Part shown: positions 12,119-39,111 of the stretch, piece by piece | Layout of the letters: every line of letters begins with the position of its first letter | Numbering within the stretch: the first letter of the stretch is position 1 | Origin: an uncultured Bacteroidales bacterium | Lineage (GTDB): Bacteria > Bacteroidota > Bacteroidia > Bacteroidales > Paludibacteraceae | NCBI GenBank assembly: GCA_902784425.1 | Contig: CACZUS010000020.1 | Location: 1-39,392 of the forward strand | Direction of reading: 5' to 3' | DNA: 39,392 nt | The notes under the pieces: model-generated | What the model was told of the DNA's origin: nothing | What the model saw: only the letters and a program-made list of their open reading frames with translations | Databases searched by the model: none | Program-made: the position numbers and the translations under genes

Positions 12119-12133
12119 TCTTCTACATACTGG

Positions 12134-13249: not shown

Positions 13250-13346
13250 AACAATAATAACGCTGTGTGTTTAATTTCTTTGCAAAACAACATCTGCCAA
13301 ATAACTTGTGAGTTGACGATTAACTTAAATAGGCACAAAAAAGATA

Positions 13347-16231: not shown

Positions 16232-16365
16232 ACTTTGCGTTTTTTCAAAAGCTAATCTTGAGATATGTTTTTGAGGTTTGACAATCAATTATGTCGCAAA
16301 AACAGACAAATCCATAACCATACACATAGAGGACAATTCGCGAGGAAACTGTTTGTGTGGAGTTC

Positions 16366-17310: not shown

Positions 17311-17355
17311 AGCTGTTTGTTTTTATGGTTTGATAAGAAAATGTATTGGGCCTTT

Positions 17356-17982: not shown

Positions 17983-18009
17983 GGTTTTATGTGTTTAATA
18001 GTATGATGA

Positions 18010-22311: not shown

Positions 22312-23388
22312 TTATTTACGGTTACTTATCGTATTTTGAATGTAGGGATACAACGATTTAAAGGTTTTGCAAAAAGCGTTTTTCCCATCGGAAAACACAT
22401 GCCTATAACATCCTCCACCACAAATATCATGAATCTCACAATGATCACACTCGCGTCTCGCGCTTTCTGTGGCATCATTAATAATTGTAGTCAATTCTTT
22501 TGAGCAATGAATACTAAAAAAATCTTCTACTAAAATATTTCCTAATGCTTTTGTGTCGAAAGAATACGGATCACAGAAAAAAACGTCTCCGTTAGGAAGA
22601 ATTGATAATGCATATCCGCACTTGTTCCTATTACTATATGTACAGGCATTTGTCGTTGCTCCCAAACACAACTGCATTACATATTCAAATTCCCTTATTC
22701 TCAGGTGATAATTCCCAAAATAGTATCGATTAAACAACTTCGTCAGAAAATCAGACAGAATATCATTATCAACGGTAAGTCCTTTCTTGTCATCATAAAT
22801 GCAATAGCATAATCCGACAGAATGAATGCTGTTTTCTACCAAAAAGTCATAGTATTTATCGGCCATCCCTTTATGAGCATTCGTAATCACAGATAGTATT
22901 CCATAATTACATTTAGCTTGGTTTAATTCTTGGATGTTATGCAACACGATTTGGTTGCCTCCCTTATTTTCGTGGAAATTAATCTCTTCGGGACCGTCAA
23001 TGGAAACCCCAATATGGAAAGCATTGTCTTTTAAAAAGCCAATCCATTGTTGATTTAACAAGGAACCATTAGTTTGAATATTATTAATAAAAGACATGCC
23101 TGGATATTTCTGTTTCATTTCATTCTGAAAAGCAATAGCTCTTTCAAAGTTTTGAATACCCCATAGCAGAGGCTCCCCTCCGTGATAGATAACATTTAAA
23201 TGCATCCAACCATGTGAAACATTATAATCACATGCTTTCTCAACTACAGTTTTATATGTCTCAAAGTCCATTACGCTTTTGCGGTTATTCAAGTGATACC
23301 TACAAAAATCACATGAAAAATTGCAATTCTCGGTAACTTTGAGAATAGGGGTAATATAATCTCCTCTATTACAGAAATTGTTCATCAC
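22312..23388 (-). CDS. Radical SAM/SPASM peptide-modifying enzyme 3
   Basis: Protein of 358 residues, close relative of enzyme 1 (12134-13249). The cluster motif is CNFSCDFC (Cys 22, 26, 29), followed by HGGEPLLWG, NNIQTNGSLLN, GVSIDGPEE and SVITNAHKGMA. The SPASM region has ACTYSNRNKCG, FFCDPYSF, CDHCEIHDICGGGC and AFCKTFK. The precursor gene lies 38 bases upstream on the same strand. The expected reaction is a carbon-carbon link inside aromatic-x-Asp units of the precursor. No transporter, protease or methyltransferase gene accompanies this cassette, so export or leader removal must rely on other genes. Confidence 0.92.
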   Translation of the reverse strand: MMNNFCNRGDYITPILKVTENCNFSCDFCRYHLNNRKSVMDFETYKTVVEKACDYNVSHGWMHLNVIYHGGEPLLWGIQNFERAIAFQNEMKQKYPGMSFINNIQTNGSLLNQQWIGFLKDNAFHIGVSIDGPEEINFHENKGGNQIVLHNIQELNQAKCNYGILSVITNAHKGMADKYYDFLVENSIHSVGLCYCIYDDKKGLTVDNDILSDFLTKLFNRYYFGNYHLRIREFEYVMQLCLGATTNACTYSNRNKCGYALSILPNGDVFFCDPYSFDTKALGNILVEDFFSIHCSKELTTIINDATESARRECDHCEIHDICGGGCYRHVFSDGKNAFCKTFKSLYPYIQNTISNRK

Positions 23389-24160: not shown

Positions 24161-24195
24161 AAAACAAAAAAACGGCATCCCAAAGGGATGCCGTT
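24161..24195 (-). terminator. Strong intrinsic terminator after the third radical SAM cassette
   Basis: An 11-bp stem (AACGGCATCCC 24171-24181 with GGGATGCCGTT 24185-24195) and a 3-base loop, followed on the minus strand by TTTTTGTTTT. It ends the transcript carrying the enzyme at 24449-25762 and the 53-residue peptide. Confidence 0.92.
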
Positions 24196-24265
24196 TGATT
24201 GACGGTATATTGAGGTATGGCCCACAAAGGCCATCCCAGGTCATTACAATAACTACGCTGCGCCT

Positions 24266-24427
24266 TTACTTTTCGGATATGCAAGAACATACATACCTGT
24301 CAGGGGCAACCCTGGTTTCAAAATCGATAGTTCGACCAATGCTTGTTGTCGTTACGTTTGAACAAAAGCCTTGCTGTCCTTGGGTGTAACGGCCCTGCAG
24401 TGATTGATTTGATTTGATTACTCTCAT
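24266..24427 (-). CDS. Short Cys-containing peptide, 53 aa, possible RiPP precursor
   Basis: ORF of 53 residues starting MRVIKSNQSLQGRYTQGQQG, 22 bases after the radical SAM enzyme stop and before a strong terminator. It contains three Cys, one in GFCSNVTTTS and two in YVCSCISEK at the end. Together with a SPASM enzyme this suggests thioether crosslinks (ranthipeptide or sactipeptide-like). It is not related to the aromatic-x-Asp precursors. AGAGAAGA precedes the ATG as a weak ribosome site. It may also be a chance ORF, but its placement in the transcript supports it. Confidence 0.6.
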   Translation of the reverse strand: MRVIKSNQSLQGRYTQGQQGFCSNVTTTSIGRTIDFETRVAPDRYVCSCISEK

Positions 24428-24448: not shown

Positions 24449-25762
24449 TTAAACAATTGTATTTCTATGATAAATATTCTCGACATAAAGATCTAGGTTG
24501 TCTTTTTCGAAGATGCATTGCTTTTTGCCTTCCAACCTGAATTTCTTACAGCCACCATTGCATATTGGCAACACCTTGCATTGCAAACATTCGTTATCGT
24601 CCAGCACCGAGACATTTCTAAAGGCCAGGTATTGTGGCTCTTTTGATTGATGAATCCCATCACGCACATGACCGACAGAGACTTCCGGCTTGTAGTCGTG
24701 GACACATAAATAAATGTTTCCAAGGGGGTCTATCGTGTAGTAACCCGGATTGTCAGCCTCGCAAAATCGAAAGTCAACCGCTTCGCACCTGTTTTCAACA
24801 TGATATCCTTTTTCATGCGCCATCTTTATCAGCGCAAAGATACCTTTGTAGGGAGAACTTCCTGCTTTTTTCTCAGAGAACTCTTTCCAACCAGAGGTCT
24901 CGGTGGAATAAATCCATCTAAAAAAGATGGAGGAATGCTCTTTTACCACATCGGGCAACTCGTTCAGGAGTGTCTCGATGGATTCATAGTTCTCATCAGA
25001 TAGATTCACCCTTATCCTCAGAGGGAGGTGGCTCTTGGAATGGGTGCAGTAATTCACGATGTTTTCTACATTTTTTTTATACGACCCCTCTCCGTTGGAA
25101 AAACGCTTCATTTTGTTGTGATAGGCTTCAGACCCATCAAAAGTCACCTGCACGTTGAACACCTGGCATCTCTCCAATGTTTCAACCACTTCGGGGGTCA
25201 ACAAACATCCATTGGTAGTAATGCCAGCTTGATAATCGATATGGGAAGCACTGCAATGAGCAATAAAAGCCTCGGACAGCATTTCGATGCTCTTCATGTT
25301 AAGTAGAGGCTCGCCACCAAACCAATTGACGGAAAGCATTCGTTTCCCGTCAAGGTTGTTGACAACCCAATCTTTGACTTGATTTGCAGTAGTTACCTTC
25401 ATGCTCAAACCGTTTTTGTTTTCGTAACAGTAAGGGCATGACAAATTACATGCCAAAGATGTGAGAATGGACAGAGATAATGCAGATTGATCGAAATGGG
25501 ACCTGTTATAATGGAACTTATAATAGTCCAACTCGTTCGCGGATTCTGGGATGGCATATCTCATTCCCACCAACATCCGGCCAAACTCTGTTTCAGGATC
25601 AATGGAACCACGTTCAATTATGACAAGGTCTTCGTTATCCAGTTCAACCAATTGTTTGTACAATAAGTTGTATAGGAGAACGATTCCGTTTTCCGTGGAA
25701 CACAGGACGTTGTATCTTGATGCTACGAATCCCTTAACCCTTATTTCAGCGTTCAACAGCAT
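24449..25762 (-). CDS. Radical SAM/SPASM peptide maturase 4
   Basis: Protein of 437 residues from the ATG at 25762. An upstream GTG at 25798 overlaps the promoter and is unlikely. The N-terminal 90 residues (SRYNVLCSTENGIVLLYNLL, EDLVIIERG) form the small domain common before the barrel in Cys-peptide maturases. The cluster motif is CNLSCPYC (Cys 105, 109, 112), then NWFGGEPLL, GITTNGCLL and QVTFDGSE. The SPASM region has YLCVHDY, CLQCKVLPICNGGC and KQCIFEKDN. The following 53-residue peptide is its likely substrate. It belongs to a different branch from enzymes 1 to 3. It has its own promoter and terminator but lies directly downstream of the signalling cluster. Confidence 0.9.
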   Translation of the reverse strand: MLLNAEIRVKGFVASRYNVLCSTENGIVLLYNLLYKQLVELDNEDLVIIERGSIDPETEFGRMLVGMRYAIPESANELDYYKFHYNRSHFDQSALSLSILTSLACNLSCPYCYENKNGLSMKVTTANQVKDWVVNNLDGKRMLSVNWFGGEPLLNMKSIEMLSEAFIAHCSASHIDYQAGITTNGCLLTPEVVETLERCQVFNVQVTFDGSEAYHNKMKRFSNGEGSYKKNVENIVNYCTHSKSHLPLRIRVNLSDENYESIETLLNELPDVVKEHSSIFFRWIYSTETSGWKEFSEKKAGSSPYKGIFALIKMAHEKGYHVENRCEAVDFRFCEADNPGYYTIDPLGNIYLCVHDYKPEVSVGHVRDGIHQSKEPQYLAFRNVSVLDDNECLQCKVLPICNGGCKKFRLEGKKQCIFEKDNLDLYVENIYHRNTIV

Positions 25763-25787: not shown

Positions 25788-25795
25788 CAAAAATA
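25788..25795 (-). promoter_or_regulatory. Promoter -7 element (TATTTTTG) of the third radical SAM cassette
   Basis: Exact TAnnTTTG match 25 bases upstream of the ATG at 25762. It decides the start of the enzyme. It suggests the cassette can be transcribed separately from the genes upstream. A TTTTG lies about 22 bases further upstream. Confidence 0.65.
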
Positions 25796-25800
25796 CACTA

Positions 25801-26463
25801 TTATTCACTAACTCCCTTCAAAAGGTCATTTAACCTATCCCAATCTTCGGCATATTCGGAACTGCTTTGACATGATTCGTACTTTTTCAGAAAGGCATCC
25901 AACTCGTTTTTGAAACCTTGTTCGCATAGGATGTGGTAAGAAGGCGAGTTTACGAGTTCAATTCTTTTATTTGGTACGAGGCATTTTTCTGTAAAATCAT
26001 GAATAACCAAGGGCATAAAAACCGAATTGACGATTCGATTCAGCTTGTCACCTTCCGAATCAGTAAGTATATCAAATACTGGTTCATAAGAATTACCCCA
26101 CCCTTCTTCGTGCATTCCACCATAAGGGAAAAGATAGTTCCACCGGTTGAATTTGTTTTGCGTATTATGGAATCCTTGAGAATGAAAAAGAACAAACGTT
26201 TGTTCTTTTTTCTTTTCACAATCGTCAAACAATACCTGCAGCGAAGCTTTACTTATCTCATCAAACACAAGATAACATCCTTCTGCTGACAAATTAGCAA
26301 CAGGTTGCAGAATAATACGGTATTCTTTATTTGTAACGCATTTCGCTATAGGATTGTCTTCATTAGGGTATGAATCCTCGTTCCAGTTAACTCGTTTTCT
26401 AATTTCGAACGGCATCCCCGAATCCCAACTATAATAGTTAGTCAATAACACTACTCTCTTCAT
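25801..26463 (-). CDS. Unknown protein, 220 aa, end of the signalling cluster
   Basis: Starts at the ATG at 26463 (MKRVVLLTNYYSWDSGMPF), which overlaps the end of the kinase-like gene by 26 bases and has GAAGGAAA in front. A longer reading from 26553 is just overlap with the upstream gene. Strands and helices alternate: RVVLLTNYY, YRIILQPVANL, CYLVFDE, TFVLFHSQGFHN and FMPLVIHDF, like a Rossmann or alpha/beta-hydrolase-type fold. FHSQG might be a nucleophile-like loop, but no full triad is evident. I recognise no family. The overlap points to coupled translation with the LRR-kinase-like protein, so it may be its effector. Confidence 0.65.
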   Translation of the reverse strand: MKRVVLLTNYYSWDSGMPFEIRKRVNWNEDSYPNEDNPIAKCVTNKEYRIILQPVANLSAEGCYLVFDEISKASLQVLFDDCEKKKEQTFVLFHSQGFHNTQNKFNRWNYLFPYGGMHEEGWGNSYEPVFDILTDSEGDKLNRIVNSVFMPLVIHDFTEKCLVPNKRIELVNSPSYHILCEQGFKNELDAFLKKYESCQSSSEYAEDWDRLNDLLKGVSE

Positions 26464-29400
26464 TTTTCCTTCTTGCTTGATGTAATAAATAATTGATGAT
26501 GTACTTGTTTCTGTTTTCGACAAATGCATAAAGAACCGAAGACAGATCGGCAAAACAAACAGATGGCGGTAAAGTCAAAGAGTGGGAACCACGCCCGCTT
26601 GTGACAACTAATCGTTTGGCCATGCCAGACCATTTATTGAGTTTTTTGGTAATAAGGTCTTCGTCGTTTTTATACATTCGTTCCAGGATGCCATAGTGTA
26701 TTAAAACCATGGCGTTTCGTGTATTCGTTTCAATATACTCCTCAACCTTCTCAATAAGACTTTGATTAAAATCTTTGGGAGCAAGAGGGATTGAGGATGC
26801 ATTGGGAACAAGCACGTTGGTTGATTCAAATAATGCACTTACAGGAATAGGACCTCCACATTTGGCATCCGACTTGCCTTCAACGCCTTTCAATTGATGT
26901 TTTTGGATTCTCTCGTCTATTACAACCACGCGGTTGTGATAAGCCTCAAATATTTCTTGTTTTATCCTTTTTGCATCTTTATCTTTTTTTATTTTTATTG
27001 TTCTCAAATAATTGACAATTGGTCTTTTTTTTCCAACAGAAAGGGTTTGAAACCCTGGTAGTTTTGCGCTTGAATGACTGGAAAGGTTTTCCACCCAGGC
27101 TTCCATTATTTCGTCGTCTTTGTAATGTAGAGCTTGTTTCCATTTCACTTGATGATTGTTTTTGTCTCCATGGTTGAGAAAGACTACATGGTTCGGGACT
27201 GGTTCCCCATTATCATCATCAACATCGATTTTGCCATCGATGCGTATCTTAGAATTGTTGGGATTTATTAGTTTAATTTCTGTTTTATAATAATGATCCC
27301 ATACTAACTCTTTCAATTGCGGGATAGGGTTATCCTTATCGATGCCAACAAGTATTTTAGTTATTTTAGCCGATTCATCACGGCTAATCTTTAGTTTGCG
27401 TATTGGTAGTAATGTTTTGCACACATTGTTTTCTGAAAGAAGTTCTTCTGCTTCTTTGGTGATGCTATCATTATAAACCAGGAACTGGTGTGCATACGAT
27501 TTGCCAGATTTCATGTCTTGAACAAACTGGTCTGTACCAACAATAAGAAGGCCATAATTAAACAATGCCTTTTGGTTGGGATTGATACCCCAATCGCCTA
27601 CAAGCAATATTTCCTTTGGCTTTGGCAGAAAAAAGCGATACCCTAGTTTCCCACCTTTGTTTATCGCTCTAAGAATTGTTAGGGTTGTATGCTCGTCATT
27701 ATGGTATTCATCATTATCATTAAAACCGTAAATATACGAATCAATCTTTGAGATGTTGATTTGACGCAAAAAAGCTGCCGAAGCTTCCATTTCAATCAAA
27801 CCAAGACCACGGGTGCGCAGATTGTTGTGCTCGTCAATAATAGAATCATTGATTTGTTTATTTTGTTTTTCAACCAAGTGTTTTATATTGTCTTCTTTTA
27901 TTCCATTGTCAATTTCAACACAATAGTATTCACGATATTCTGGGAAGTCGCCATCTTCTGAAAAATCATCTAAAAAATCTATTGTAAACGTCACACGATC
28001 ATTCTCACTTCGACCTATTGAAGCATGTTTTGCCGTGTTACGTATAATGTTCTCAATGATGTTATAAAAAGCCTGGTTGGCCAACACGTCACTTGGGAAA
28101 GCCACAGCAATGTCGTTCTGCCCATTTAGGGGTTTCCCGTTATAGAACAGTTGGAATTTGTATTCAAATCCTTGAACACCTGCGATGTGGTTGAGCAGTA
28201 GTCTCACTTGATCCAACTCTCTAAAAACATCACTATAAAAGTTTTTTGCAACCAAGATGCTCGGCACTCCAAAAGTCACTTCCGACAAATAATCCATACG
28301 ATTCTTCATGTATCTATTGAAGTAGGCCAGTTGTTGTCCGCTCTTTATTTTTATCTTGAAGATAGGATTAAAACCATAATCACTTGATGCAAGTTTTTTA
28401 ATACTCCGATAAAAACTATCTCCCGTGAATTCGCTTAGGACATGGGAGCCGATGTTGTGGCTTAAATTTCTATTGTTTACTTGATTAACGGCGGCACCCA
28501 CAGCCTTCTCCCTGTTCTTGTACATCCTAATACCTGCTTGGATTTGAGCTGAAAGTCTGTTCAGGAATTGCCTGAGTTGTCGCAGATATGACACAATACA
28601 TTCTTTGTTTGCAACTTTTGTACTGTTAATGCCTACATTGGCCCATAAAGAATAATCGTGATCCATCTTTTCGCCATAATTACCAATATAGAAAAAATTA
28701 GTGATGGCATCGTCGGAATAAGAATTCAATGCCATAAAATAGTCTTTTTTCGCATCAATTATCTCATTCGTATCGCTGTCCCCTAGTTTACCCAAAAAAT
28801 GAATACTCTCTCCAATCGGTCTATCATTTGGTCCATCATTGTGATTTCTTATTATTGGATAGAATTGAGGTAAGACAGGTTCGCTTTTATAGCAGCAATA
28901 TTCAACAATGTTACCAACCGGCGCAAACTCTTGCTTGTTGTTTTTCAAAATATAAATCAATGAATCCATGTCAAAAACTGGATTGTTTTTGTTTTCATCA
29001 GGTCTCTTGTCTGTTACAATGCGGTTTATATAATCAACATAGACATTGATGCTAAAAGGTTGGTTTTCGCCTATATTGTTGAAAATATGAAGGCATTGGA
29101 CAAAGCCAAATCTCGTTGACATAAGGTAGTTTTTAAACCACCGTAAGGAATTATACAATGTGCCGTTAAAACTTTTCGGGTAGATTATGTCCAAACCATC
29201 TGCAAAGTCAACAACAATCGGAGCAAATGCCCTTTCGGCAAAATAGTCAACAAAACTTGGTTTTTTAGGCATATTGAGCTCCTGTCCGGAATGCTCAGAT
29301 AACTTATTTAGATAGGGATGCACCATTTCTATATCGCTCGACACCCCTGCATCTTTCAAAAGAGAAGGGTTGTTGATGCTTATTTGCTTAAGGTTACGAC

Positions 29401-29923
29401 ATTCAGCCATGGCATTATCTCCAATACTTCGTGCATTTTCTATGCTAATTGTTGTTAGGCACACACAGCCCTTAAAGGCTTCATTGCCAATTGATTCAAC
29501 CATATCAATGGCGACAGTTGACAGTTTTGTGCAACCCTCAAACGCATTATCGCCAATTGATTCTATTGATGTCGAACTCAATTCCATCAGTTCTGAACAT
29601 CCTCGAAAGGAATTCTCTCTGATTTCGGTAACGGAAGATAAGTCAATAGCCTTTAGATTAGTGCATCCTTCAAATGCATTAGATGCAATTCCCTTAATTT
29701 GGTAGATTTCTCCGTTACAATCAATATGTTTTGGAATGATTATTTGACTCGGGCAGTCACATTGGTAAAGCCCCATGCAATACAAACCTACTGTCCGCTC
29801 ACTCGATTTGAACAAAAGTCCATAACCGGATTTGTGTTTTGAATGAAAATACATTTCGGAGTCGGTTGTCTCCTTGAGACAAACGGTTGTAAAGTCTTTA
29901 CTATTGTTCAAATCGTTAGCCAT
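26438..29923 (-). CDS. Soluble LRR / histidine-kinase-like ATPase, 1161 aa
   Basis: Large cytoplasmic protein without signal peptide or TM segments. Residues about 75-190 hold five BspA-type leucine-rich repeats (NAFEGCTNLKAIDL, SFRGCSELMEL, NAFEGCTKLSTV). About residue 484, LSHNIGSHVLSE resembles a histidine-kinase dimerisation helix with His. The GHKL ATPase follows: NIIENIIRNTAKHAS (N box, about 620), VEIDNGIKED (G1-type, about 667) and RTRGLGLIEME (G2, about 701). After this comes a receiver-like region (EILLVGDWG) and a C-terminal alpha/beta domain (NRVVVIDERIQ, NAMVLIHYGIL, KRLVVTSGRG) of unknown family. The LRR part may sense a ligand. Neighbour genes encode a receiver-like protein, a SecB-like fusion and a ClpX-like ATPase. 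The domain order is unusual for a two-component kinase. Confidence 0.75.
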   Translation of the reverse strand: MANDLNNSKDFTTVCLKETTDSEMYFHSKHKSGYGLLFKSSERTVGLYCMGLYQCDCPSQIIIPKHIDCNGEIYQIKGIASNAFEGCTNLKAIDLSSVTEIRENSFRGCSELMELSSTSIESIGDNAFEGCTKLSTVAIDMVESIGNEAFKGCVCLTTISIENARSIGDNAMAECRNLKQISINNPSLLKDAGVSSDIEMVHPYLNKLSEHSGQELNMPKKPSFVDYFAERAFAPIVVDFADGLDIIYPKSFNGTLYNSLRWFKNYLMSTRFGFVQCLHIFNNIGENQPFSINVYVDYINRIVTDKRPDENKNNPVFDMDSLIYILKNNKQEFAPVGNIVEYCCYKSEPVLPQFYPIIRNHNDGPNDRPIGESIHFLGKLGDSDTNEIIDAKKDYFMALNSYSDDAITNFFYIGNYGEKMDHDYSLWANVGINSTKVANKECIVSYLRQLRQFLNRLSAQIQAGIRMYKNREKAVGAAVNQVNNRNLSHNIGSHVLSEFTGDSFYRSIKKLASSDYGFNPIFKIKIKSGQQLAYFNRYMKNRMDYLSEVTFGVPSILVAKNFYSDVFRELDQVRLLLNHIAGVQGFEYKFQLFYNGKPLNGQNDIAVAFPSDVLANQAFYNIIENIIRNTAKHASIGRSENDRVTFTIDFLDDFSEDGDFPEYREYYCVEIDNGIKEDNIKHLVEKQNKQINDSIIDEHNNLRTRGLGLIEMEASAAFLRQINISKIDSYIYGFNDNDEYHNDEHTTLTILRAINKGGKLGYRFFLPKPKEILLVGDWGINPNQKALFNYGLLIVGTDQFVQDMKSGKSYAHQFLVYNDSITKEAEELLSENNVCKTLLPIRKLKISRDESAKITKILVGIDKDNPIPQLKELVWDHYYKTEIKLINPNNSKIRIDGKIDVDDDNGEPVPNHVVFLNHGDKNNHQVKWKQALHYKDDEIMEAWVENLSSHSSAKLPGFQTLSVGKKRPIVNYLRTIKIKKDKDAKRIKQEIFEAYHNRVVVIDERIQKHQLKGVEGKSDAKCGGPIPVSALFESTNVLVPNASSIPLAPKDFNQSLIEKVEEYIETNTRNAMVLIHYGILERMYKNDEDLITKKLNKWSGMAKRLVVTSGRGSHSLTLPPSVCFADLSSVLYAFVENRNKYIINYLLHQARRKNEESSVID

Positions 29924-29938
29924 TTCAATACTATTTAA

Positions 29939-31162
29939 TTAATTATTATTGTTATTGGCACCATCCTTGATGATAACACTGTAATTCTCGCTACTTGCGC
30001 AGGCAAAAAGGCCATTCCCGAGGTATTGAATATCCCAATAATCGTTCGGCATGACAACTACCCTGAAATTGGCATCCATAACGCCATAACCGTTTATGGC
30101 CTTGTACTGGATGTAGGGTGACACGTTCTCCTCTGGATCTCTAAGGACATAGACGTTGTCAGCATAGGCACAGTCATCGTAAAAGCAGAAATCGCTCATG
30201 AGGCTTCCGTTTTGGTCAATGCCTCTTAGTACGCCATCTTTTTGACAGAGAATCAACACTTTGCCGTAGGTGTCAACAAAAGCCATCTGGTCATAAATGG
30301 CGGAGACAGTCATATTGCCTTTCTTGTCGAACAAGCCATAATGGGGCATTCCTATCGAGTCGCGTCTTTCCAGAATGACGGGCTGCTCAAAATCATAGCT
30401 GTTATCATAGTCGCGATGCAACACGCCAGGAGATAATGACTCACACCAACTGTCACTCCATGGACGGCTTGGGCTTCCGAAATCTTTGATTTCAATGTCG
30501 TCATACTCAACGGGCAAAACGATTTCGCCAGCCTCATTGATGATTCCGACCTTGCCATGAAGACCAGGAACGAGTGACAAGCCACCACGGAACACGAAGT
30601 CAAAGTATTGATAGTTTTCACTATAATCATGGCGGAGATAAGCCGAGTCGATTTCAAACTGGAAGGGAATGGCTACCTGTCCGGTCTTGACATTGACAAA
30701 CCCCAGTTTTAGTTCATTGTTGAGACATGCGGCCAGTCCGCTAATAGGGTCGCTTTCCCAAGCCATGATATACTGAGGTTCCACGAGTACATTGCCCGAA
30801 ACGGGGTCAATGAACCCATACAGGCTGTCATTGCACACCATTACGGAGCCTTCGCTGGAATTGAGCATGATTTCACAAAGAGAGCTGCCGTAGTCTTGGG
30901 CATATACTTTGTCGTAACAACCTACAACTTTTCTAAGCTCTTTGTTGAATATTTCAACCCTGCCATTTTTAGCATCGCGGGTGTTCAGAGTTTCCGTCAG
31001 AAAATTGCCGGCTTTTTTCAGCCTAATTTCTTCGTGTTTGTCCATGCCCCAGCTAACAGCCCAAGAGAGGCCATAGCCTAAGAAAAAGAGAACTATGCCG
31101 CAACAAACGACATACAAGTACTTTCTGATGATCAACATCGTGCGCTTTGTTTTGAGTTTCAT
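29939..31162 (-). CDS. WG-repeat protein with N-terminal membrane anchor, 407 aa
   Basis: One hydrophobic segment at about residues 12-35 (YLYVVCCGIVLFFLGYGLSW) anchors or exports the protein. The rest contains at least five WG-type repeats (GFID.SGNVLVEPQY, GFVNVKTGQVAIPF, GIINEAGEIVLPVEYDD, GLFDKKGNMTVSAIYD, GVMDANFRVVVMPNDY). These likely form a beta-propeller-like binding domain on the outer side of the membrane. The C-terminus ends in five Asn. It lies 15 bases before the LRR-kinase-like gene and has a promoter-like element at 31206-31213. It may be the sensor or ligand-binding component of the cluster. Confidence 0.8.
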   Translation of the reverse strand: MKLKTKRTMLIIRKYLYVVCCGIVLFFLGYGLSWAVSWGMDKHEEIRLKKAGNFLTETLNTRDAKNGRVEIFNKELRKVVGCYDKVYAQDYGSSLCEIMLNSSEGSVMVCNDSLYGFIDPVSGNVLVEPQYIMAWESDPISGLAACLNNELKLGFVNVKTGQVAIPFQFEIDSAYLRHDYSENYQYFDFVFRGGLSLVPGLHGKVGIINEAGEIVLPVEYDDIEIKDFGSPSRPWSDSWCESLSPGVLHRDYDNSYDFEQPVILERRDSIGMPHYGLFDKKGNMTVSAIYDQMAFVDTYGKVLILCQKDGVLRGIDQNGSLMSDFCFYDDCAYADNVYVLRDPEENVSPYIQYKAINGYGVMDANFRVVVMPNDYWDIQYLGNGLFACASSENYSVIIKDGANNNNN

Positions 31163-31205
31163 TGTTCTAAAGATTTAGTTGTTAATACTACGTAAACTGT
31201 GAGCA

Positions 31206-31213
31206 CAAAATTA
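31206..31213 (-). promoter_or_regulatory. Internal promoter -7 element (TAATTTTG)
   Basis: Exact TAnnTTTG match on the minus strand in the 94-base gap before the WG-repeat gene. No clear -33 element is visible. Confidence 0.4.
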
Positions 31214-31256
31214 AGTACTTGGCTATTCTGGGGGGTAGTGTAATGCTTAGGGGAAT

Positions 31257-33464
31257 TTAGTAATCGAAATCCAACTGAGCGATTTTCTCCTCTGATGAAA
31301 AATCAAAGGCGGCAGCCCCTTTCCTTTCAATGGCATATACAAAGGATTTTTCCTCGTCTGTAAGTTGAATGCTGTCATCAAGATCATATTTACAATGAAA
31401 CTCAATAGAATAATGCAACGGGTCCTCTAAACATTTGGATTGGTTATTAGACGTTCCATCTCTATATTCACTACTTATAGCTCTACAAACTAAATCTTCA
31501 TCATAAAATGTAATGTCATTGATTCTAGGGTCGGCTTTGATGAGTTGTGCCATGATGTCATAATGTTTGACAAAAAGCCTTCCATACAAGAAAAACCTCC
31601 TAAGTATTAGCCTTTTAATAATGTTCTTAATGTCCGTTGCGTTGAGTTGCTCGCCTTGGATGACCTTTGTTTTCATCTCGCATCTGTTATTTCCCAGTCC
31701 AATGTATCTGCCGATATAATTCTTAGTTCTCGTGCAGACTTTATCATAAGACACCCAATCGTTACGATAGCAACTAGCGTTTTCTTTGAGAAAATGCTTA
31801 ATCAACTCCAATGAAACCATTCTGACAGCATCTTCCATGTCCCTATAATTATTAATGTAATAATAACAGGACACCTCTTCTTTCACAGCTTTCAATTTTA
31901 TGTTTTCACCATAATTACTCACTTTCTTCACATATTTATACATTTCCCTGAATGTTTTACAACAATTATACTCATCTAATGGTGCAAGATCTGTTGAGTT
32001 TTTCTGATAAGCTTCTTTGATGCCGTAAAGGAATTTGTCAATTGACTCGTCGGTAGCAAAAATGTCTTCTTTCAAGCGGATGTCTTTCAGGCTGTCATTG
32101 TAATAACCTTTGAGACGAGAGTGTAGATCGCGTGTCACATTTGTCGCGATGTAATACATGGTGGGAGAGTTTTGCCGCCATCTGGCCTCTTCGATAACAT
32201 CGAAACCTAGAGCGACTAACTCGCCTTTGGCCCATATTTCAATGTCACAGACAACAACTTTGAATGGGACAGCCTCATCCTCTAATTTTTCAAAGGAATA
32301 AAAGAAGTCAACTGCATTTCTGACGACAATCGGTTCCCTGAACAAATACAGTTGGCCATTTGCGGATTTTTCTTTGTTCTTTTTCACTATATAGTCGACA
32401 AAACGGTTCGCGTCATCATCTTTCTCATTGTCTTCAAGGAAAAGGATTGGAATTTGCTTCTCGCGAGAATCGCAGGTGTAATCACTGATAGTTTTTTGGC
32501 CCTTATATTCTTGTTGTTTTTTAAGTTTGTTGATAAGCGTAATGCTAAACTGTTCCAGGTCTATACTAGGGTTTTCGGCCTTTTTCAACAAATCTTCATT
32601 GCTCCCGAACTCAATTCCAATGGCATATCTAAGCTGCTCTCTGAACATTTGCTTTTCTTCTTCAGAGCAATTACGAGAGCGGTGCTTTATCTGTCGTAAC
32701 ATGCCTAAAGTGTCGCAGTATTGTTCGATGGTGAAATCTAATTGTTTGTCGCTTTTCATATAGTCCATACCGTCAAAAGCGTCCAACAGACTCTTTACAT
32801 TGGACAGCATGAACGGCACGAACTTATGCTGTAACGCTGTCGTTGAGATGATTGTGGCATCGGGCCTAGTTTTAAGGATTGTCTCTTTGGAGCCCATGGA
32901 GGTGAAAACGACAGGAGCCTTCATCCTTTTTTCGTATCTGATGAATTGTTGTACGAGAGTGATTCCTGCATATTCATTGGGCTTGACATCTGACTTTTCA
33001 TGATCCCACTCTAATTCACAGAGAACAATAATCCCATCGATAGCTTGTGAATGTTCGTTGAGTCGTTTTTGAAGCATGTCAAAGCTGGTACATATATCAT
33101 ATTTGTATCTTGTGATCTCTGAAATCAGTTTCTCCTTGTATTGATTCTCTTGTTTCTCAACTATTGTCTTAAGCTTAGAAACATTGTCAACACTATTAGT
33201 TTCCCCAAAGACATTCATTATACTAACAAACAAAGGGTTTTTCCTTATCTTTCCATTCGTCTTGTCGTAGATATATTGCAAACGTATCAGCTTGGGGTCA
33301 TCAGCTTCTTTGATTAAGTGCTCAAAATGCTTTTTTACGTCGCTTTTCTGCTTTCTAATCTTTTCGATTTCTTGATTAGCAGCATCATTGATGCCATCGA
33401 AAGCATCTTTGATGCCGTTTGCACTTGCTTTATTATTCCAGCAAACTATGATGTTCTTTTCCAT
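31257..33464 (-). CDS. Protein with two degenerate receiver-like domains, 735 aa
   Basis: Two alpha/beta regions look like response regulator receivers. The first (residues about 1-215) has NIIVCWNNK, then DGIIVLCELEWDHEKSD at about 140-156 and APVVFTSMGS at about 184-192, but the phospho-acceptor Asp position is Glu. The second (about 335-450) has PILFLEDNEKDD, FKVVVCDIEIWAKG (possible acceptor Asp) and MYYIATN, closer to a true receiver. The C-terminal 290 residues are helical and of unknown family, with KNIIKRLILRRFFLYG. It likely receives a signal from the LRR-kinase-like protein encoded downstream. It has a -7 match upstream at 33494-33501. The two receiver-like domains appear tuned for non-standard signalling. 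Confidence 0.65.
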   Translation of the reverse strand: MEKNIIVCWNNKASANGIKDAFDGINDAANQEIEKIRKQKSDVKKHFEHLIKEADDPKLIRLQYIYDKTNGKIRKNPLFVSIMNVFGETNSVDNVSKLKTIVEKQENQYKEKLISEITRYKYDICTSFDMLQKRLNEHSQAIDGIIVLCELEWDHEKSDVKPNEYAGITLVQQFIRYEKRMKAPVVFTSMGSKETILKTRPDATIISTTALQHKFVPFMLSNVKSLLDAFDGMDYMKSDKQLDFTIEQYCDTLGMLRQIKHRSRNCSEEEKQMFREQLRYAIGIEFGSNEDLLKKAENPSIDLEQFSITLINKLKKQQEYKGQKTISDYTCDSREKQIPILFLEDNEKDDDANRFVDYIVKKNKEKSANGQLYLFREPIVVRNAVDFFYSFEKLEDEAVPFKVVVCDIEIWAKGELVALGFDVIEEARWRQNSPTMYYIATNVTRDLHSRLKGYYNDSLKDIRLKEDIFATDESIDKFLYGIKEAYQKNSTDLAPLDEYNCCKTFREMYKYVKKVSNYGENIKLKAVKEEVSCYYYINNYRDMEDAVRMVSLELIKHFLKENASCYRNDWVSYDKVCTRTKNYIGRYIGLGNNRCEMKTKVIQGEQLNATDIKNIIKRLILRRFFLYGRLFVKHYDIMAQLIKADPRINDITFYDEDLVCRAISSEYRDGTSNNQSKCLEDPLHYSIEFHCKYDLDDSIQLTDEEKSFVYAIERKGAAAFDFSSEEKIAQLDFDY

Positions 33465-33493
33465 TGGTTTAATATTTAATGAGTTATTTCGCG

Positions 33494-33501
33494 CAAAAAT
33501 A
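33494..33501 (-). promoter_or_regulatory. Internal promoter -7 element (TATTTTTG)
   Basis: Exact TAnnTTTG match in the 49-base gap between the SecB-like and receiver-like genes, 30 bases before the ATG at 33464. It may separate the chaperone and signalling genes into two transcripts. Confidence 0.55.
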
Positions 33502-33513
33502 CAAATAATCTTA

Positions 33514-34680
33514 TCAAGATTGATATAAAAGCGTTTGGAGGTTACATTCTTTTATCTTTTCGTACATCATTCCCAAGAAAGAGGCGTTTTCGTCAGACAC
33601 ATTGGCATCGAAAATGCGATAAAATTCCTGCTCCGACAACAATTTACTGTTTTGTGATTGTTCCTCTGACAAAACGCTTTCGTTCTGATAACCTAGCAGA
33701 TTGACAGAAATATCAACCAATGCTTCCGTGATAAGATCGGAAAGCAGCTCTTTCAACTCTTCGATTGTCAGACTAGAGATGGTTCTGTCCTGAAAACTTT
33801 CATAGGAGAACTCGATTTCTGGAAGGCCATGCTCATCATCAATCACCTGACATTGCGACTTGAAACTCCCATACAGCATTTGGAACAAGATGGGCCAAAT
33901 GGATTCGTCACACTCGTCGAAATTGGGATGGAGATATTCGATTGGAGTGAAAAAGCAATAGTAGCATTTATAGATTGGCAGAGATTCATAATCTTTAATA
34001 GGTTCGTCACCAGCATGACTTGAATATAGTTCCCAAAAATTTCGGACTGCTTCCAGCAATTCCATATCTTCTTCAGCCCAACGGAAGTTAATCATCCACT
34101 GAAAATCGATTTTCTCAGATTCCAGGTCATTAGAGGTGTCTTGACTGAATGCGTCAAAGAGATTATAGACACCTTGCTCGAATTCAGGACACTCAGTTTC
34201 GACATCAGAAACACTTTCAATGATATCACTGATCCCGTCAATGAGTGGCTCTGATGATTCTGCATCATTGTTTTGTATCGGGTTGTCAAAAGTGTCGTCA
34301 CGCATCATGAAGGGAACACCGGCATCATGTGTCACTTGATAAACTGTGGAGCGAATGTTGTCCAAAAGGGCATGTGGCACCTGCACCTTAAGGATTTCAT
34401 CCCATTCTGTTTCAGAGATAAAGGAATCAAATGATCCAACAACAGCGGAATAGCCAAGGAGAAGATTGTAAACAGGAGAACCATCTTCTGCATTTGCAGA
34501 AATATGCACTTGCATTTCCACAAGGTGGTACATATTGTTTTCAGAGTTTCTTGTCCCGATTTCAACATGAATGCTCGTTTCGGTGGGCAAAATGGGATTG
34601 GGTGACAACTGGGCAGATTCGGCAACATCAAAAGCAATGCTTGTTACGAATGATTTAGCAATAAAAAATGGAGGTGTCAT
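33514..34680 (-). CDS. SecB-like chaperone domain fused to an acidic C-terminal domain, 388 aa
   Basis: Starts at the ATG at 34680 (MTPPFFIAKSFVTSIAFDV), 11 bases after the ClpX-like gene. The N-terminal 145 residues follow the SecB fold: a paired strand with VEIGTRNS, a MYHLVEMQVHISANAED strand with the SecB-type alternation, LLLGYSAVVGSF, and a C-terminal helix PHALLDNIRSTVYQVTHDAGVPFM. SecB binds unfolded proteins. Residues about 150-388 form a very acidic region rich in Asp, Glu and Phe with no known match (ESVSDVETECPEFEQ, LSSLTIEELKELLSDL-type helices). Normal SecB is about 150 residues. SecB-like proteins also serve as chaperones of antitoxins. Here it probably feeds clients to the ClpX-like ATPase. 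Confidence 0.7.
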   Translation of the reverse strand: MTPPFFIAKSFVTSIAFDVAESAQLSPNPILPTETSIHVEIGTRNSENNMYHLVEMQVHISANAEDGSPVYNLLLGYSAVVGSFDSFISETEWDEILKVQVPHALLDNIRSTVYQVTHDAGVPFMMRDDTFDNPIQNNDAESSEPLIDGISDIIESVSDVETECPEFEQGVYNLFDAFSQDTSNDLESEKIDFQWMINFRWAEEDMELLEAVRNFWELYSSHAGDEPIKDYESLPIYKCYYCFFTPIEYLHPNFDECDESIWPILFQMLYGSFKSQCQVIDDEHGLPEIEFSYESFQDRTISSLTIEELKELLSDLITEALVDISVNLLGYQNESVLSEEQSQNSKLLSEQEFYRIFDANVSDENASFLGMMYEKIKECNLQTLLYQS

Positions 34681-34691
34681 AGCTGTAAATT

Positions 34692-36152
34692 TTATTTGGT
34701 GAGTAAATTGAGTTGTTTGGCGATGAAGTCGCAATCGACATTGATAGTCAACATATCTTTCGTCTTGGGCAAATCGCTGAGTTCTTCAAAGTATAATGAC
34801 TGGAGATATAAGGAAAGATTTGGCTTAACCTCTCGGAACCCACAATTCGACTTATAAACAACTTCTGCAATTAAACGCAAGGCTTCGGAAGTAAAACTAA
34901 GATCGATATTGTGCAAACGACAGTAATCAATGTGTTTTTGAAGAATATTGTCCTTTGCATTGGTCAAAATGTTATAAATCGTATCAGGTGTAAAGGAATT
35001 CAAAACACAAATACGGCCAATACGTCCAACAAATTCACGGTTAAACCCCCATGTTTGAAGGTCTTCTTTAGAAACTTGTTTAAGCAAAGCTTCAGTTTCT
35101 GCTTCCGTTATCTCTACCTCAGAATTAGGTTGTTTGAATCCAATTGATTTATTTGGTATTAGTCTCTTCCTGATAATATCTTCAATTCCAGTGAACGCAC
35201 CTATAAACATAGGCAGCATGTCATCAACGGGCAGTTTGTATCCTTTAGTTGTTCCGTCTTGCTTGAATCCATCTCCCAAAAACAATTCGTGCCCTTGATC
35301 AAACAAACCCATAATCTGATTCATCTTAGCTTTAGCATAAGAATCTTCTTTATCTCCAACAGTCTTTTGGTCATATTCTGGAATCTTGTCAAATTCATCA
35401 AAAATAATGATTGCATACTTGAGTTCGTCAATGGTATGACCATCTTTGATTTCGCGTACAAGTATTTCGGATAACTGGTCTCCTTTCCAAGAATTCGGAG
35501 AAAAGTCTTGGCAATTGATGTAAATTACTGGGCATTTAGATATTCGTTTAAATTCCTGACAAATCATACTTTTACCCGTTCCCGTACGCCCAATCAGTAC
35601 CATTGGGGATGCAATTCTGAAATGGTAATTGTTTTTCAAACTTTCATTCTGCTGAAAGATTGGAACAGAAAATGCATTAACCACTTCTTCCTGTCCTATC
35701 ACAATTTGGTTTACGTGTGCTGCCATTTCTTTCGGACTATGAAATTCTGATTTCGATGGATTCTTTTGAGTATCCATCAATGTGTCTCGATTAAGACCAT
35801 AATGCTTTTCAAGATAAGCCCAGTCGGATGCAGATAGTTCACCGAACGTATTTGTCCAATCCTGGATTTTGTCATGCATGAGTTCGGAAAGGTCGGATTC
35901 TGACGACCGATAGAGAAGGGGGGCTTGCATACCTTTGTCGATGAGTTTCAAAAGCCGGTCCACCGAAATGATTCCTCTCTGCAGTTGGTCCAAGTAACGT
36001 ATGACATGTTCGGGAGTAATTTGAGGATTGAAAAACAGTTTTGCTATGAGTGTTTTAAAATCTTGTCTGCTTGATTTGTCGCACATGACGGGAATTCCAA
36101 AGAACAAGGCTTCTTCATTCGTGTGTTTTAAGGTGTTCGGGGTGGTTTTCAT
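34692..36152 (-). CDS. ClpX-like AAA+ ATPase, 486 aa
   Basis: AAA+ protein resembling ClpX/HslU unfoldases. Walker A is GRTGTGKS (residues about 187-194) after SPMVLI. Walker B is YAIIIFDEFDKI (about 243-254). FNREFVGRIGRICVLNSFT (about 367-385) matches the ClpX region PEFVGRLP that holds the sensor and arginine finger. A C-terminal small domain has FREVKPNLSLYLQSLYF. The N-terminal 130 residues are helical and have no zinc-binding Cys, unlike true ClpX. A Lys-Asp-rich insert after Walker B (TVGDKEDSYAKAKMNQ) is unusual. No ClpP-binding IGF loop is evident. It starts the signalling cluster, and the SecB-like fusion follows after 11 bases. Confidence 0.85.
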   Translation of the reverse strand: MKTTPNTLKHTNEEALFFGIPVMCDKSSRQDFKTLIAKLFFNPQITPEHVIRYLDQLQRGIISVDRLLKLIDKGMQAPLLYRSSESDLSELMHDKIQDWTNTFGELSASDWAYLEKHYGLNRDTLMDTQKNPSKSEFHSPKEMAAHVNQIVIGQEEVVNAFSVPIFQQNESLKNNYHFRIASPMVLIGRTGTGKSMICQEFKRISKCPVIYINCQDFSPNSWKGDQLSEILVREIKDGHTIDELKYAIIIFDEFDKIPEYDQKTVGDKEDSYAKAKMNQIMGLFDQGHELFLGDGFKQDGTTKGYKLPVDDMLPMFIGAFTGIEDIIRKRLIPNKSIGFKQPNSEVEITEAETEALLKQVSKEDLQTWGFNREFVGRIGRICVLNSFTPDTIYNILTNAKDNILQKHIDYCRLHNIDLSFTSEALRLIAEVVYKSNCGFREVKPNLSLYLQSLYFEELSDLPKTKDMLTINVDCDFIAKQLNLLTK

Positions 36153-36332: not shown

Positions 36333-36368
36333 AAAAAATAAGCGTGCCTGCAAAGCAGACACGCTTAT
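36333..36368 (-). terminator. Intrinsic terminator of the T9SS-secreted protein gene
   Basis: ATAAGCGTG (36338-36346) and CACGCTTAT (36360-36368) form a 9-bp stem with CTGC/GCAG inside. The minus strand then runs into six T. It follows the stop codon of the PNGase F-like gene by 28 bases. Confidence 0.88.
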
Positions 36369-36396
36369 CAAAACACCCTATTAAGTATTTCGGTTC

Positions 36397-39051
36397 TTAA
36401 TTCTGAATCATCACCTTTCTCGTCACCATCTTGCCACCGATGACGTGGACGAAATACATACCCGAAGGCAGGTCGCTCACGTCGATGGTGCGCTGGCCTT
36501 CCACGCTGAAGCCACGCACTTTGGCGCCTTGCGGGTTGATGATGACGACGCTGGCTCTACCCTTATCGTAGTCCGTGGTGATGGTCATCTGGCCTCTCGC
36601 GGGGTTGGGGGTGATGGTCACATTGAAGGGTTCTGCGTCCACATCGGGAAGTTCAGGAACTTCCGTCAGGATGTCGGTGTTGTGGCTGTAGGTCACCAAC
36701 TTACCGGAGACCTTTAAGAGCGGGTTGCTGGAATTGGTACAATCCGGGCAGCTGTTCTGACCGCTCACGCAGTCGGGGTAGTTGGGGTGGCATTGGTCGA
36801 CATAGGTCGGGTCGAACTCATAAAGCACGTCCGCGTGACCATCGGCGAGATAGTCGTCGAGGCTGTAGTCCCACACCATCGTCATGCTGCCTGGGCACCA
36901 ACCGGCACGGGCATAGGTCCAAGTGCCGTTTTGGGGCTGGCAACCAGCGGGATTGGGGGTACAGGTTTGCCAGAGATCCTGAGTGTAGGCCGTTGCGCCA
37001 TTGATGTTGATGTTGTGGGGGTTGGCGTGGTAGAACTCGGCAGCATTGCCCGTATTGTAGGCACCATTGCCCGTGTCGCTCCAGTTGTGTCCCGAGGTTG
37101 TGATTTGCAGCTTGGCCTTTTCGACACAAGGATCAAATTCGACTGTACGCATCGGGATGGGGCACAAGTTCTCGTAATCGCCAAACGAATAGCTACCATA
37201 CCACAGTTCCTGTAAGTCCACGTAAGGATACTCTGGAGTGCCTTTGGTGTATTCAAAGATAGCCGTGGGGTTATAACCTTGACCGGTTGAATATTGTTCG
37301 CTATAATATTCAAATTCGACGAGTCCTTGCAGCACGGAGGTGAAGTCGGTCACGTCGAGGTCGTCGACACATTCTACGCCGAACGGGGTGATGTAACGGC
37401 AGAGTTCCACCCATTCGCCACGGTAGTTCTTCACGCGGAGATAGCTTTGGTGGTCGTAAGTGTTGCAGTCGCCGTTCACGCAGTTATGCAGATAATGCAA
37501 GTTGATGGCATTGAAGGCGTTGACATGGGTCGGGAAGGGATATTCGCCGTAGGCGGTGAAATAGGTTGTGTTCACCACCACCTCGCCGTTGAGGGCAGAG
37601 ACGTTCATGTCGTCATAGTCGGTGGTCACATCGAAAGTGTTGGAGGCCGTGGTGACCTTGCCACCCGTTTGGGTGATGGAGATGGTCATGTTGTAGGAAC
37701 CTTCACCTGAAGGCGTCCAAGTGGTGTACCAATAACCATTTTCAGGTTTGTCGGGATAGTCGGTCTTCAAGGTCAGCACTTGTCCATCGACTTCGCATTT
37801 CACTTCTTCGAACTTAAGGATGGAGCCATGGTCGATATAAGCGCTGATCACCACCATCACAGGATTTTCAAAATCGGGCATGTAGACCTTGGTGCCTTCG
37901 TAGGGACGGCGGATGGTGATCTCAGGTTCATAGTTCTCGGGGTCGACCACATAGAAGGAACGGTTCACTGCAGGGGCGGGTTGCCATTGGGTGCCGTCAC
38001 CGGGCTGTGAGGCGCGTACTTTCACGACGCCTTCCTCGCCGGTGAGGGTGAGAATGTTACCATCGATGGTGGCAGGACCTTGGATGACTTCAAAGGTCAC
38101 AGGAAGTCCCGAGGTGGCGCTGGCTTCAAGGGTGATGGGTTCGTTGTAGACCAACTGGTCGGGGATTTCAGTGAAGTCGATGAACTGTGCCGTCAAGCCG
38201 CCAGGGAAATGGCGAACGGTGAAGTTATCGAAGCCGCACCAGCCGCTGTTGAGCATGAAGATGTGGTGCCATGTGGCGGGGTCGTACTTGTCGCCACTGC
38301 CAGGGGTCAGACCGACGTTGACACCTTGGCATTCCGGGACAGCTTCCCACTCGCCGCCAGGCACATCATACATCGCATACAGGGTGACAGCACCGGCGCC
38401 GTTGTTGGCATCCAAGTCAATGGAGACCTTATAGCGGGCCCAATTCTTCTCTGTGGCGTTAGGTGTAAAATTGCAGGCAGGAGTGTTGTTGGGCAAAATC
38501 ACGCCTTTGATGAAGAGAGGATCGGTGTCGCTACCCGTGAGGAGAAAATAGACGCCGCCGTCGGGGAGGGTGCTGTTGGGATTGGGGGTGATAGGTTCGT
38601 AGAGGGCGTGGTTGGGGGCTGCCATGATGGGCGGAAGGACGGAGCCGTCGCCGTCGCCGTCATAGCCGATGCCGAACAGGGTGCCCCACCACTCGCGCAG
38701 CTGGTCGCATTCGATCTCGACGACGCCGCCATTGGAGAAGTCGAAGCCGTATTGGGTGATGTCGTGCGTGGCGATGTCGCCAAAGCTGGTGCCGGAGGCA
38801 TGCGAAAACACACCCAGGGTTTCGTCGGCCGTGGGTGTTTCCGGCGTGGTGCCCCAGAAGTGGCCAAGATAATCGGTATACATGGGACCCATGCTACCAT
38901 TACCTGCGCTGTGCACACGGACGTACCAGCCGTCTTGACCGTTAAGGATTTGACCTTCGTTATAATCGTTGAAGGTAAAGGTTTTTTCGACTTGGGCGTT
39001 CATCCCGAAGGAGAAAGCCAAGAGCATAAGGATTAGGGATAGTTTTTTCAT
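36397..39051 (-). CDS. Secreted PNGase F-like protein with T9SS sorting domain, 884 aa
   Basis: Starts at ATG 39051 with signal peptide MKKLSLILMLLAFSFGMNAQ; an upstream ATG at 39093 is less likely. Residues about 20-290 form a lectin/laminin-G-like beta domain. An Ig-like bacterial repeat follows (ITLEASATSGLPVTFEVIQG, NILTLTGEEGVVKVRAS). A region from about 490 to 770 resembles the peptide-N-glycosidase F family: TTYFTAYGEYPF, LRVKNYRGEWVELCRYITPF, TSGHNWSDTGN, NTGNAAEFYH and GTWTYARAGWCPGSM. The last 80 residues are the T9SS type A sorting domain: NVTITPNPARGQMTI, VVIINPQGAKV and LPSGMYFVHVIGGKMVTRKV. It is exported across the outer membrane and anchored or released. It probably removes or binds N-glycans. 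It is the most GC-rich gene of the window along with proS. Confidence 0.85.
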   Translation of the reverse strand: MKKLSLILMLLAFSFGMNAQVEKTFTFNDYNEGQILNGQDGWYVRVHSAGNGSMGPMYTDYLGHFWGTTPETPTADETLGVFSHASGTSFGDIATHDITQYGFDFSNGGVVEIECDQLREWWGTLFGIGYDGDGDGSVLPPIMAAPNHALYEPITPNPNSTLPDGGVYFLLTGSDTDPLFIKGVILPNNTPACNFTPNATEKNWARYKVSIDLDANNGAGAVTLYAMYDVPGGEWEAVPECQGVNVGLTPGSGDKYDPATWHHIFMLNSGWCGFDNFTVRHFPGGLTAQFIDFTEIPDQLVYNEPITLEASATSGLPVTFEVIQGPATIDGNILTLTGEEGVVKVRASQPGDGTQWQPAPAVNRSFYVVDPENYEPEITIRRPYEGTKVYMPDFENPVMVVISAYIDHGSILKFEEVKCEVDGQVLTLKTDYPDKPENGYWYTTWTPSGEGSYNMTISITQTGGKVTTASNTFDVTTDYDDMNVSALNGEVVVNTTYFTAYGEYPFPTHVNAFNAINLHYLHNCVNGDCNTYDHQSYLRVKNYRGEWVELCRYITPFGVECVDDLDVTDFTSVLQGLVEFEYYSEQYSTGQGYNPTAIFEYTKGTPEYPYVDLQELWYGSYSFGDYENLCPIPMRTVEFDPCVEKAKLQITTSGHNWSDTGNGAYNTGNAAEFYHANPHNININGATAYTQDLWQTCTPNPAGCQPQNGTWTYARAGWCPGSMTMVWDYSLDDYLADGHADVLYEFDPTYVDQCHPNYPDCVSGQNSCPDCTNSSNPLLKVSGKLVTYSHNTDILTEVPELPDVDAEPFNVTITPNPARGQMTITTDYDKGRASVVIINPQGAKVRGFSVEGQRTIDVSDLPSGMYFVHVIGGKMVTRKVMIQN

Positions 39052-39111
39052 AATATTAAGTTTAAGTAATATTGACAAACCGTTCAAAGCCAAAGAACAG
39101 AATTATTGGCG

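Follow-up and report, generated by a model that had tools for sequence, protein, structure and literature searches.

A putative eight-gene cassette of an uncultured Bacteroidales bacterium encodes a divergent histidine kinase and a tandem receiver together with a ClpX-like unfoldase, a SecB-like chaperone and a peptide maturase

We describe a gene cassette in a stretch of 39,392 nucleotides from an uncultured bacterium of the Paludibacteraceae (Bacteroidales; contig CACZUS010000020.1 of assembly GCA_902784425.1); this whole stretch will be referred to as the window. A previous note made from the letters only (the sequence-only reading) had proposed that six of its genes, i.e. those for ClpX-like, SecB-like, receiver-like, WG-repeat and leucine-rich repeat (LRR) kinase-like proteins and for a protein of 220 residues, form a signalling or defence system. 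Our analysis extends the cassette to eight genes and suggests a phosphorelay that might control the ClpX-like and SecB-like pair.

Organization of the cassette

All six genes are indeed found on the minus strand, from 36152 to 25801, and are as closely spaced as had been described: when the ATG starts at 34680 and 26463 are used, the gaps are of 11, 49, 94 and 15 bases and the single overlap is of 26 bases. Two further genes continue the row. That of a radical SAM/SPASM maturase starts 38 bases past the gene of the 220-amino-acid (aa) protein, and 21 bases past the maturase gene comes a small gene for a precursor peptide. The features of the unit are, following the minus strand:

36337–36369 (minus): terminator-like stem-loop of 15 pairs with a T tail, after the upstream gene
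34692–36152 (minus): ClpX-like unfoldase of the AAA+ family, 486 aa, with both Walker motifs (A and B); WKG stands where ClpX has its GYVG pore loop, and IGF where it has the ClpP-docking loop; the N-terminal region does not resemble that of ClpX
33514–34680 (minus): SecB-like protein, 388 aa; SecB N-domain (about residues 2–126) and a C-terminal extension of about 260 aa
31257–33464 (minus): tandem receiver protein, 735 aa; N-terminal pseudo-receiver (Glu150 for the phospho-Asp), second receiver (D345, D349, D407, T441, K465) and a C-terminal part
29939–31162 (minus): WG-repeat protein, 407 aa (PF14903, 5e-12); one likely N-terminal membrane anchor (about residues 18–36)
26438–29923 (minus): probable divergent histidine kinase, 1161 aa; LRR (about 20–202), possible GAF-like domain (about 222–440), helices resembling the dimerization and histidine phosphotransfer domain (about 441–550) with His489, ATP-binding domain (about 555–770) and a conserved C-terminal region (770–1161) with DERIQ, IHYGILER and SGRG motifs
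25801–26463 (minus): 220-aa companion protein, modelled as an alpha/beta part followed by C-terminal helices; its start overlaps the kinase gene
25788–25822 (minus): Bacteroides-type promoter-like element (TTTG, 23 bases, TATTTTTG) upstream of the maturase gene
24449–25762 (minus): radical SAM/SPASM peptide maturase, 437 aa; nearest NCBIfam model TIGR04463 (5.1e-64, below cut-off)
24266–24427 (minus): precursor-peptide gene, 53 codons, kept after the maturase in loci L021 (62%) and L024 (88%)
24170–24196 (minus): terminator-like stem-loop of 12 pairs with a T tail

Since terminator-like stem-loops flank both ends, the first separating the upstream gene from the unit and the second closing it, the eight genes likely constitute one transcription unit, i.e. 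a predicted single operon.

Two internal promoters had also been suggested. Matches to sigma-70-type elements are at the chance level (45 found, 41.9 +/- 6.6 in shuffles). Bacteroides-type elements are found seven times in the window for 2.09 expected. The one listed above, whose first half lies inside the 220-aa gene, recurs before the maturase gene in L024 and L021 with an identical spacing of 23 bases; a second element of this type (29816–29783) sits within the kinase gene.

The kinase and the tandem receiver

The LRR part of the kinase is confirmed (BspA-type, PF13306, 3e-21), but the word kinase is right only in the sense of a histidine kinase. His489 and Asn625 of the N-box are present in all 19 aligned kinase sequences, the G2 glycine is present, and residues 476–771 of the AlphaFold model match the kinase-core fold. 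No curated Pfam kinase profile hits the window kinase, and its hydropathy reveals no strong hydrophobic segment. We consider the LRR “kinase” to be a divergent histidine kinase, the two-component core being well supported by these sequence features.

The receiver alignment comprises 32 rows, i.e. the window protein and 31 of its 47 homologues. In the second domain D345, D349, D407, N442 and K465 are found in every row and T441 in 31, the remaining one having Ser. This residue set is that of phosphorylatable receivers. At the place of the phospho-Asp of the first domain, 30 rows have Glu150 and two have Asp. Pfam is silent on the window protein itself; the designation “receiver-like” is nevertheless correct on the basis of this residue pattern and of the Pfam hits of receivers encoded beside more distant kinases. 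At two such loci (L029 and L047) the receiver is preceded by an inactive-receiver match below cut-off, a similar layout, and the profile of our alignment does not match these two proteins. The Pfam scan recognised no DNA-binding domain in the tandem receiver protein.

The WG repeats had been correctly recognised, and the WG protein has the highest hydropathy (2.15) among the six proteins scored. The 220-aa protein had been put forward as a possible effector; this is unsupported, its confident model (pLDDT 91.4) having no clear structural match.

The ClpX-like and SecB-like pair

The ClpX-like protein is indeed an AAA+ protein closest to ClpX (NCBIfam PRK05342, 6.7e-43), although with 147.1 bits it misses the cut-off of the ClpX equivalog (359); its match to ClpX of the PDB is at 6.5e-26. 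Its motifs were aligned with those of eight relatives and one housekeeping ClpX (row L003). An IGF or LGF loop, which we take to be the ClpP-docking loop, is present in the window protein and in the eight relatives aligned for it. The pore loop reads WKG in the window protein and GYVG in the housekeeping row, i.e. the window protein does not have the GYVG of ClpX.

The SecB-like protein passes the Pfam cut-off for the SecB N-domain (PF02556, 1.6e-6, 28.6 bits for a cut-off of 26), in agreement with the sequence-only reading, and does not reach that of the NCBIfam SecB equivalog (1.6e-8, 34.5 bits for a cut-off of 143). Its gene is the sole SecB match in the window genome. The ClpX-like and SecB-like genes are adjacent in 6 out of 6 loci.

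Conservation and exchange of the cassette

Relatives were collected by scanning a genome collection with the kinase profile. This gave 18 loci, 17 of them with a kinase-profile match among their frames, which together with five from further genomes make 22 kinase loci. Five of these (L021, L022, L024, L025 and L027) keep the ClpX-like, SecB-like, receiver, kinase and 220-aa genes in this order and on one strand. Thus the families recur in order elsewhere, and the co-occurrence on which the proposal of a system depended is found. Disparities nevertheless appear between the five: a WG gene stands between receiver and kinase in L022 and L024, a second kinase-family gene precedes the kinase in L025 and L027, and an LRR gene precedes it in L022. 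L026 (Parabacteroides sp. PF5-9) has the order receiver, WG, kinase and 203-aa gene, with SecB-like and AAA+ genes on the opposite strand. In 20 of the 22 loci the gene right after that of the kinase is a small one, of about 160–280 codons; the other two are L035 and L030, the latter stopping at the kinase.

Genomes with a match to the kinase profile number 4 of 393 in the order, 2 of 395 in the phylum and 2 of 395 in the class; these counts include the own genome each time, and at most two candidates were scored per genome. The receiver profile is found in 1 of 358 genomes of the family. Kinase-like proteins number 392 at an E-value of 0.001 or better, that of the window included. Outside the cassette, window DNA is 97.1% identical to L022 over 3,456 bases and 96.0% identical to L024 over 2,885 bases, while the kinases are 45% (L022) and 50% (L024) identical to that of the window. 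Near-identical flanks with diverged kinases mean either that the cassette was exchanged at shared sites or that the flanking pieces are themselves mobile.

The maturase and its peptide

A SPASM maturase adjoining a small conserved precursor gene is what is found in radical SAM clusters for ribosomally synthesized and post-translationally modified peptides (RiPPs). The window maturase shares 92% identity with those of L021 and L024. Between the window and L024 the substitutions in the precursor gene are 4, 3 and 14 for the first, second and third codon positions respectively. Both genes directly follow the 220-aa gene in the three loci that have the maturase (window, L021 and L024). Radical SAM genes also occur within about 10 kilobases of the kinase in L025, L026 and L027, where they are only distantly related to the cassette maturase. 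A radical SAM gene is thus near the kinase in five of the nine Bacteroidales loci (L021–L027, L033 and L036); none is present in the locus DNA examined of L022, L023, L033 and L036. No exporter or leader-removal gene was recognised in the unit as delimited by the terminator-like sites.

The maturase gave PADLOC hits to pVip (1.9e-13), which were put down to radical SAM resemblance. Small peptide frames (9200–9380 and 13240–13356) stand beside the radical SAM genes around the kinase of L026. In the window, a second radical SAM/SPASM gene (22312–23388, minus) follows a Trp-, Asp- and Ser-rich peptide frame (23570–23427), whose VIKSN start is common with the cassette peptide. Two more adjoining radical SAM genes, one with SPASM, lie at 10973–13249 (minus), so that at least four such genes are on the contig.

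Distant kinase loci

Away from the same-order loci, Pfam identifies varied genes beside the kinase: an NMT1-type ATP-binding cassette (ABC) importer and a methyltransferase in L051, a Liv-type ABC binding protein and a PALP enzyme in L047, a methyltransferase in L032, a tyrosyl-tRNA synthetase, a pyridoxal phosphate (PLP) decarboxylase and a radical SAM enzyme in L031, an MFS protein and a ketosynthase III in L029, and a radical SAM enzyme in L045. L030, L044 and L046 are similar by reading only, L030 resembling L032 and L044 resembling L031. Four of the 15 receiver-type proteins inspected (L031, L032, L044 and L047) have near their C-terminus an RNxxxH motif, which we take to be typical of HEPN domains; that of L047 also matches Pfam DUF4145 below cut-off (0.0016).

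These varied neighbours and receiver types point to the kinase core as a modular switch whose inputs and outputs can be exchanged. A wider proposal, which we find doubtful but put forward, is that of a class of phospho-switches in Bacteroidota and at least one TM6-labelled genome. Its constant core would be the divergent histidine kinase, the small companion and receivers. The inputs would be swappable (LRR, WG propeller, or ABC binding proteins together with enzymes that modify metabolites), and so would the outputs, none of them transcriptional (the ClpX-like/SecB-like unfoldase, receivers with a HEPN-like RNase, receivers with a HerA-type ATPase). Such switches would act in circuits of two-component immunity or of conflict between self and non-self, a RiPP or a metabolite being either the trigger or the weapon.

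Three gene arrangements were seen at these loci. In L032, the kinase locus of a Flavobacteriaceae genome, a receiver is fused to a TrwB/HerA-type ATPase (16123–18738). In L033 an LRR-kinase-family gene and a ClpX-like gene enclose one (5101–6888) whose product joins a protein kinase domain to an AAA+ ATPase. Genes for a tyrosyl-tRNA synthetase and a PLP-dependent decarboxylase lie inside the kinase-receiver gene runs of L031 (13090–17145; the TM6-labelled genome, by Pfam) and L044 (3793–7868; by reading, from the matching order and similar starts).

Proposed mechanism and alternatives

With a probability of about 0.4, we propose that the LRR histidine kinase of the cassette signals to the tandem receiver, which would gate a dedicated ClpX-like unfoldase and SecB-like chaperone, alongside a maturase modifying a small peptide. 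What is read from the sequence is the order and limits of the genes, their co-occurrence elsewhere, the residues of kinase and receiver, the AAA+ domain, the SecB domain, the maturase and the peptide gene; from these we infer the gating of the unfoldase and the role of the peptide. Input through the LRR, the GAF-like domain or the WG propeller would lead to autophosphorylation of His489, and the phosphate would pass to D407 of the tandem receiver, whose Glu-bearing first domain could be a fixed “on” half. Since no DNA-binding output was recognised, the receiver may act by contact with the SecB-like/ClpX-like pair. The pair would hold and unfold a client, for which the peptide precursor and the 220-aa protein are the likeliest candidates. 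The IGF-type loop makes a ClpP partner possible.

A number of observations weigh against this proposal. For the phosphorelay, Pfam HATPase_c matches 1 of 41 kinase members (0.027), Response_reg 1 of the 32 receiver members (0.0046) and iREC 2 of them (best 0.0011); the G1 box of the kinase is degenerate in distant relatives, and Asp672 is aligned in 6 of the 19 sequences versus 41 of 41 in the larger kinase alignment. For the unfoldase, a ClpX-like gene is missing from L023, which has only those of the receiver, the kinase and the 220-aa protein, and beyond the same-order loci a ClpX-like match is found only in L026, L033 and L045; the switch thus does not need the unfoldase pair. The Walker B Asp is replaced by Thr in L022 and L025 and by Asn in L026, and the ClpX-like frame of L025 is truncated, so that ATP use may not persist in all relatives. 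At the place of the IGF loop the housekeeping ClpX reads VGY, which makes this loop weak evidence. Neither clpP nor a housekeeping clpX is found above cut-off in the window genome (96% complete assembly). A clpP gene (E < 1e-80) adjoins the clpX match in 14 of 15 other genomes of the genus, so one assembly gap, i.e. a missing contig, probably explains both absences. For the peptide, the maturase is present in only two of the five same-order loci and has its own promoter-like element upstream. Over the L021 and L024 loci it is 92% identical, for 50% in the kinase and 46–54% in the 220-aa protein; the switch has diverged much more than the maturase and its peptide, as though the two evolved separately.

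The signalling half of the sequence-only reading is upheld by the conserved histidine-kinase-like and tandem-receiver residues and by the families co-occurring in order; its defence half is not, for this architecture. A conflict or anti-phage system, in which the kinase-receiver switch would sense an invader and free a toxic or proteolytic effector (a HEPN-like receiver in the distant relatives, the ClpX-like/SecB-like pair here), appears unlikely to us. It would fit the RNxxxH motifs, the sporadic spread of the kinase profile and the near-identity of DNA around diverged kinases. Strong defence genes also flank four of 20 loci: AbiEii (L026), HmaB, HmaC and PDC-S68 (L029), pAgo (L030), HerA and SIR2 (L051). 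These amount to 7 of 148 flanking proteins by PADLOC (3.1e-53 or better), versus about 2 of 130 in 19 control stretches of six genomes, no clear difference and suggestive only. The control hits are to the DndA/SspA and PDC-M16A models (families were counted and proteins inferred), that to DndA/SspA being probably a housekeeping cysteine desulfurase. The five same-order loci have no strong PADLOC hit in their flanks, and the cluster proteins gave no convincing one (Nhi at 3e-4 for the AAA+ protein, DpdD at 0.07 for the SecB-like protein). In viral contigs 50 pattern matches yielded no confirmed relative, and hits in phages or plasmids cover no more than 13% of the protein, within the LRR part or adjoining it.

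The kinase module could otherwise sense an imported or modified metabolite and control its maturation or turnover, as part of a small-molecule or RiPP pathway that would be a signalling or antimicrobial peptide circuit. The maturase and precursor of the window, L021 and L024, the two radical SAM genes around the kinase of L026, the importers, methyltransferases and other metabolic enzymes of L051, L047, L032, L031 and L029, and the radical SAM genes of L031 and L045 argue for it. We still hold such a pathway improbable: the unit has no recognised exporter or leader peptidase, a strong hydrophobic segment is lacking in the kinase, the identified ABC genes encode importers, and the locus DNA examined of L022 and L023 contains no match to the maturase. 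Far less probable to us is a switch for proteostasis or envelope stress in which maturase and peptide are passengers without a role. The constant adjacency of the ClpX-like and SecB-like genes, the separate promoter-like element of the maturase and its higher conservation relative to the kinase speak for this, but maturase and precursor come right after the 220-aa gene in every maturase locus, window included.

Relation to known systems

Two-component systems mostly end in DNA binding or in a small enzyme. The cassette resembles them by its kinase (His489, N-box, G2 glycine, kinase-core fold in the model) and by the acidic pocket, phospho-Asp, Thr and Lys of its receiver. It differs by the LRR and possible GAF-like input, the conserved kinase C-terminal region of about 400 aa, the pairing of a pseudo-receiver with a receiver, the absence of a recognised DNA-binding output and the presence of its own unfoldase and chaperone genes. 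With ClpX (ClpXP) the cassette protein shares the AAA+ core, the Walker motifs and the IGF loop, but it scores far below cut-off, has a WKG-type pore loop and a distinct N-terminal region, and is encoded beside a SecB-like protein.

Toxin-antitoxin-chaperone (TAC) systems, as presented in passages of PMC7159879, have SecB-like chaperones, and like them the cassette encodes a SecB-family domain beside regulatory genes. It differs by the 260-aa extension of this protein and the adjacent AAA+ unfoldase, and Pfam and NCBIfam scans found no toxin or antitoxin family above curated cut-off (a RelB-like hit has 14.5 bits for a cut-off of 27). Among the Bacteroidales RiPP clusters treated in parts of PMC10352776, one (BGC5) likewise has peptide-modifying genes beside a histidine kinase and a response regulator; the words SecB and ClpX are absent from the main text of that paper, and the signalling core of the cassette also occurs without the maturase. 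Sections of PMC8195603 describe receivers of bacterial conflict systems as independent of histidine kinases. The cassette receiver would be, like these, a non-transcriptional part of a multi-gene system, but receivers of the cassette type have a kinase alongside, their loci having been found via the kinase.

If the proposed mechanism is true, the phosphorelay would act on an AAA+ unfoldase, a SecB-like chaperone and a radical SAM peptide maturase of its own. Such an output, proteolysis regulated through a private machine, would be of a new kind, and SecB-like genes would gain a role outside protein export. The kinase core offers a handle for sorting several hundred unannotated proteins and for asking whether two-component switches serve in bacterial conflict.

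Neighbouring genes

A BrxL-type Lon-like ATPase (PF13337, 5e-107) is encoded at 7038–8474 (plus); no other BREX gene was recognised among the ten window proteins scanned. Directly upstream of the cassette, the gene at 36397–39093 (minus) encodes a Por-secretion-tail protein with a domain like the C-terminal domain of PNGase F, and a homologue (83% identical) lies upstream in L024 too.

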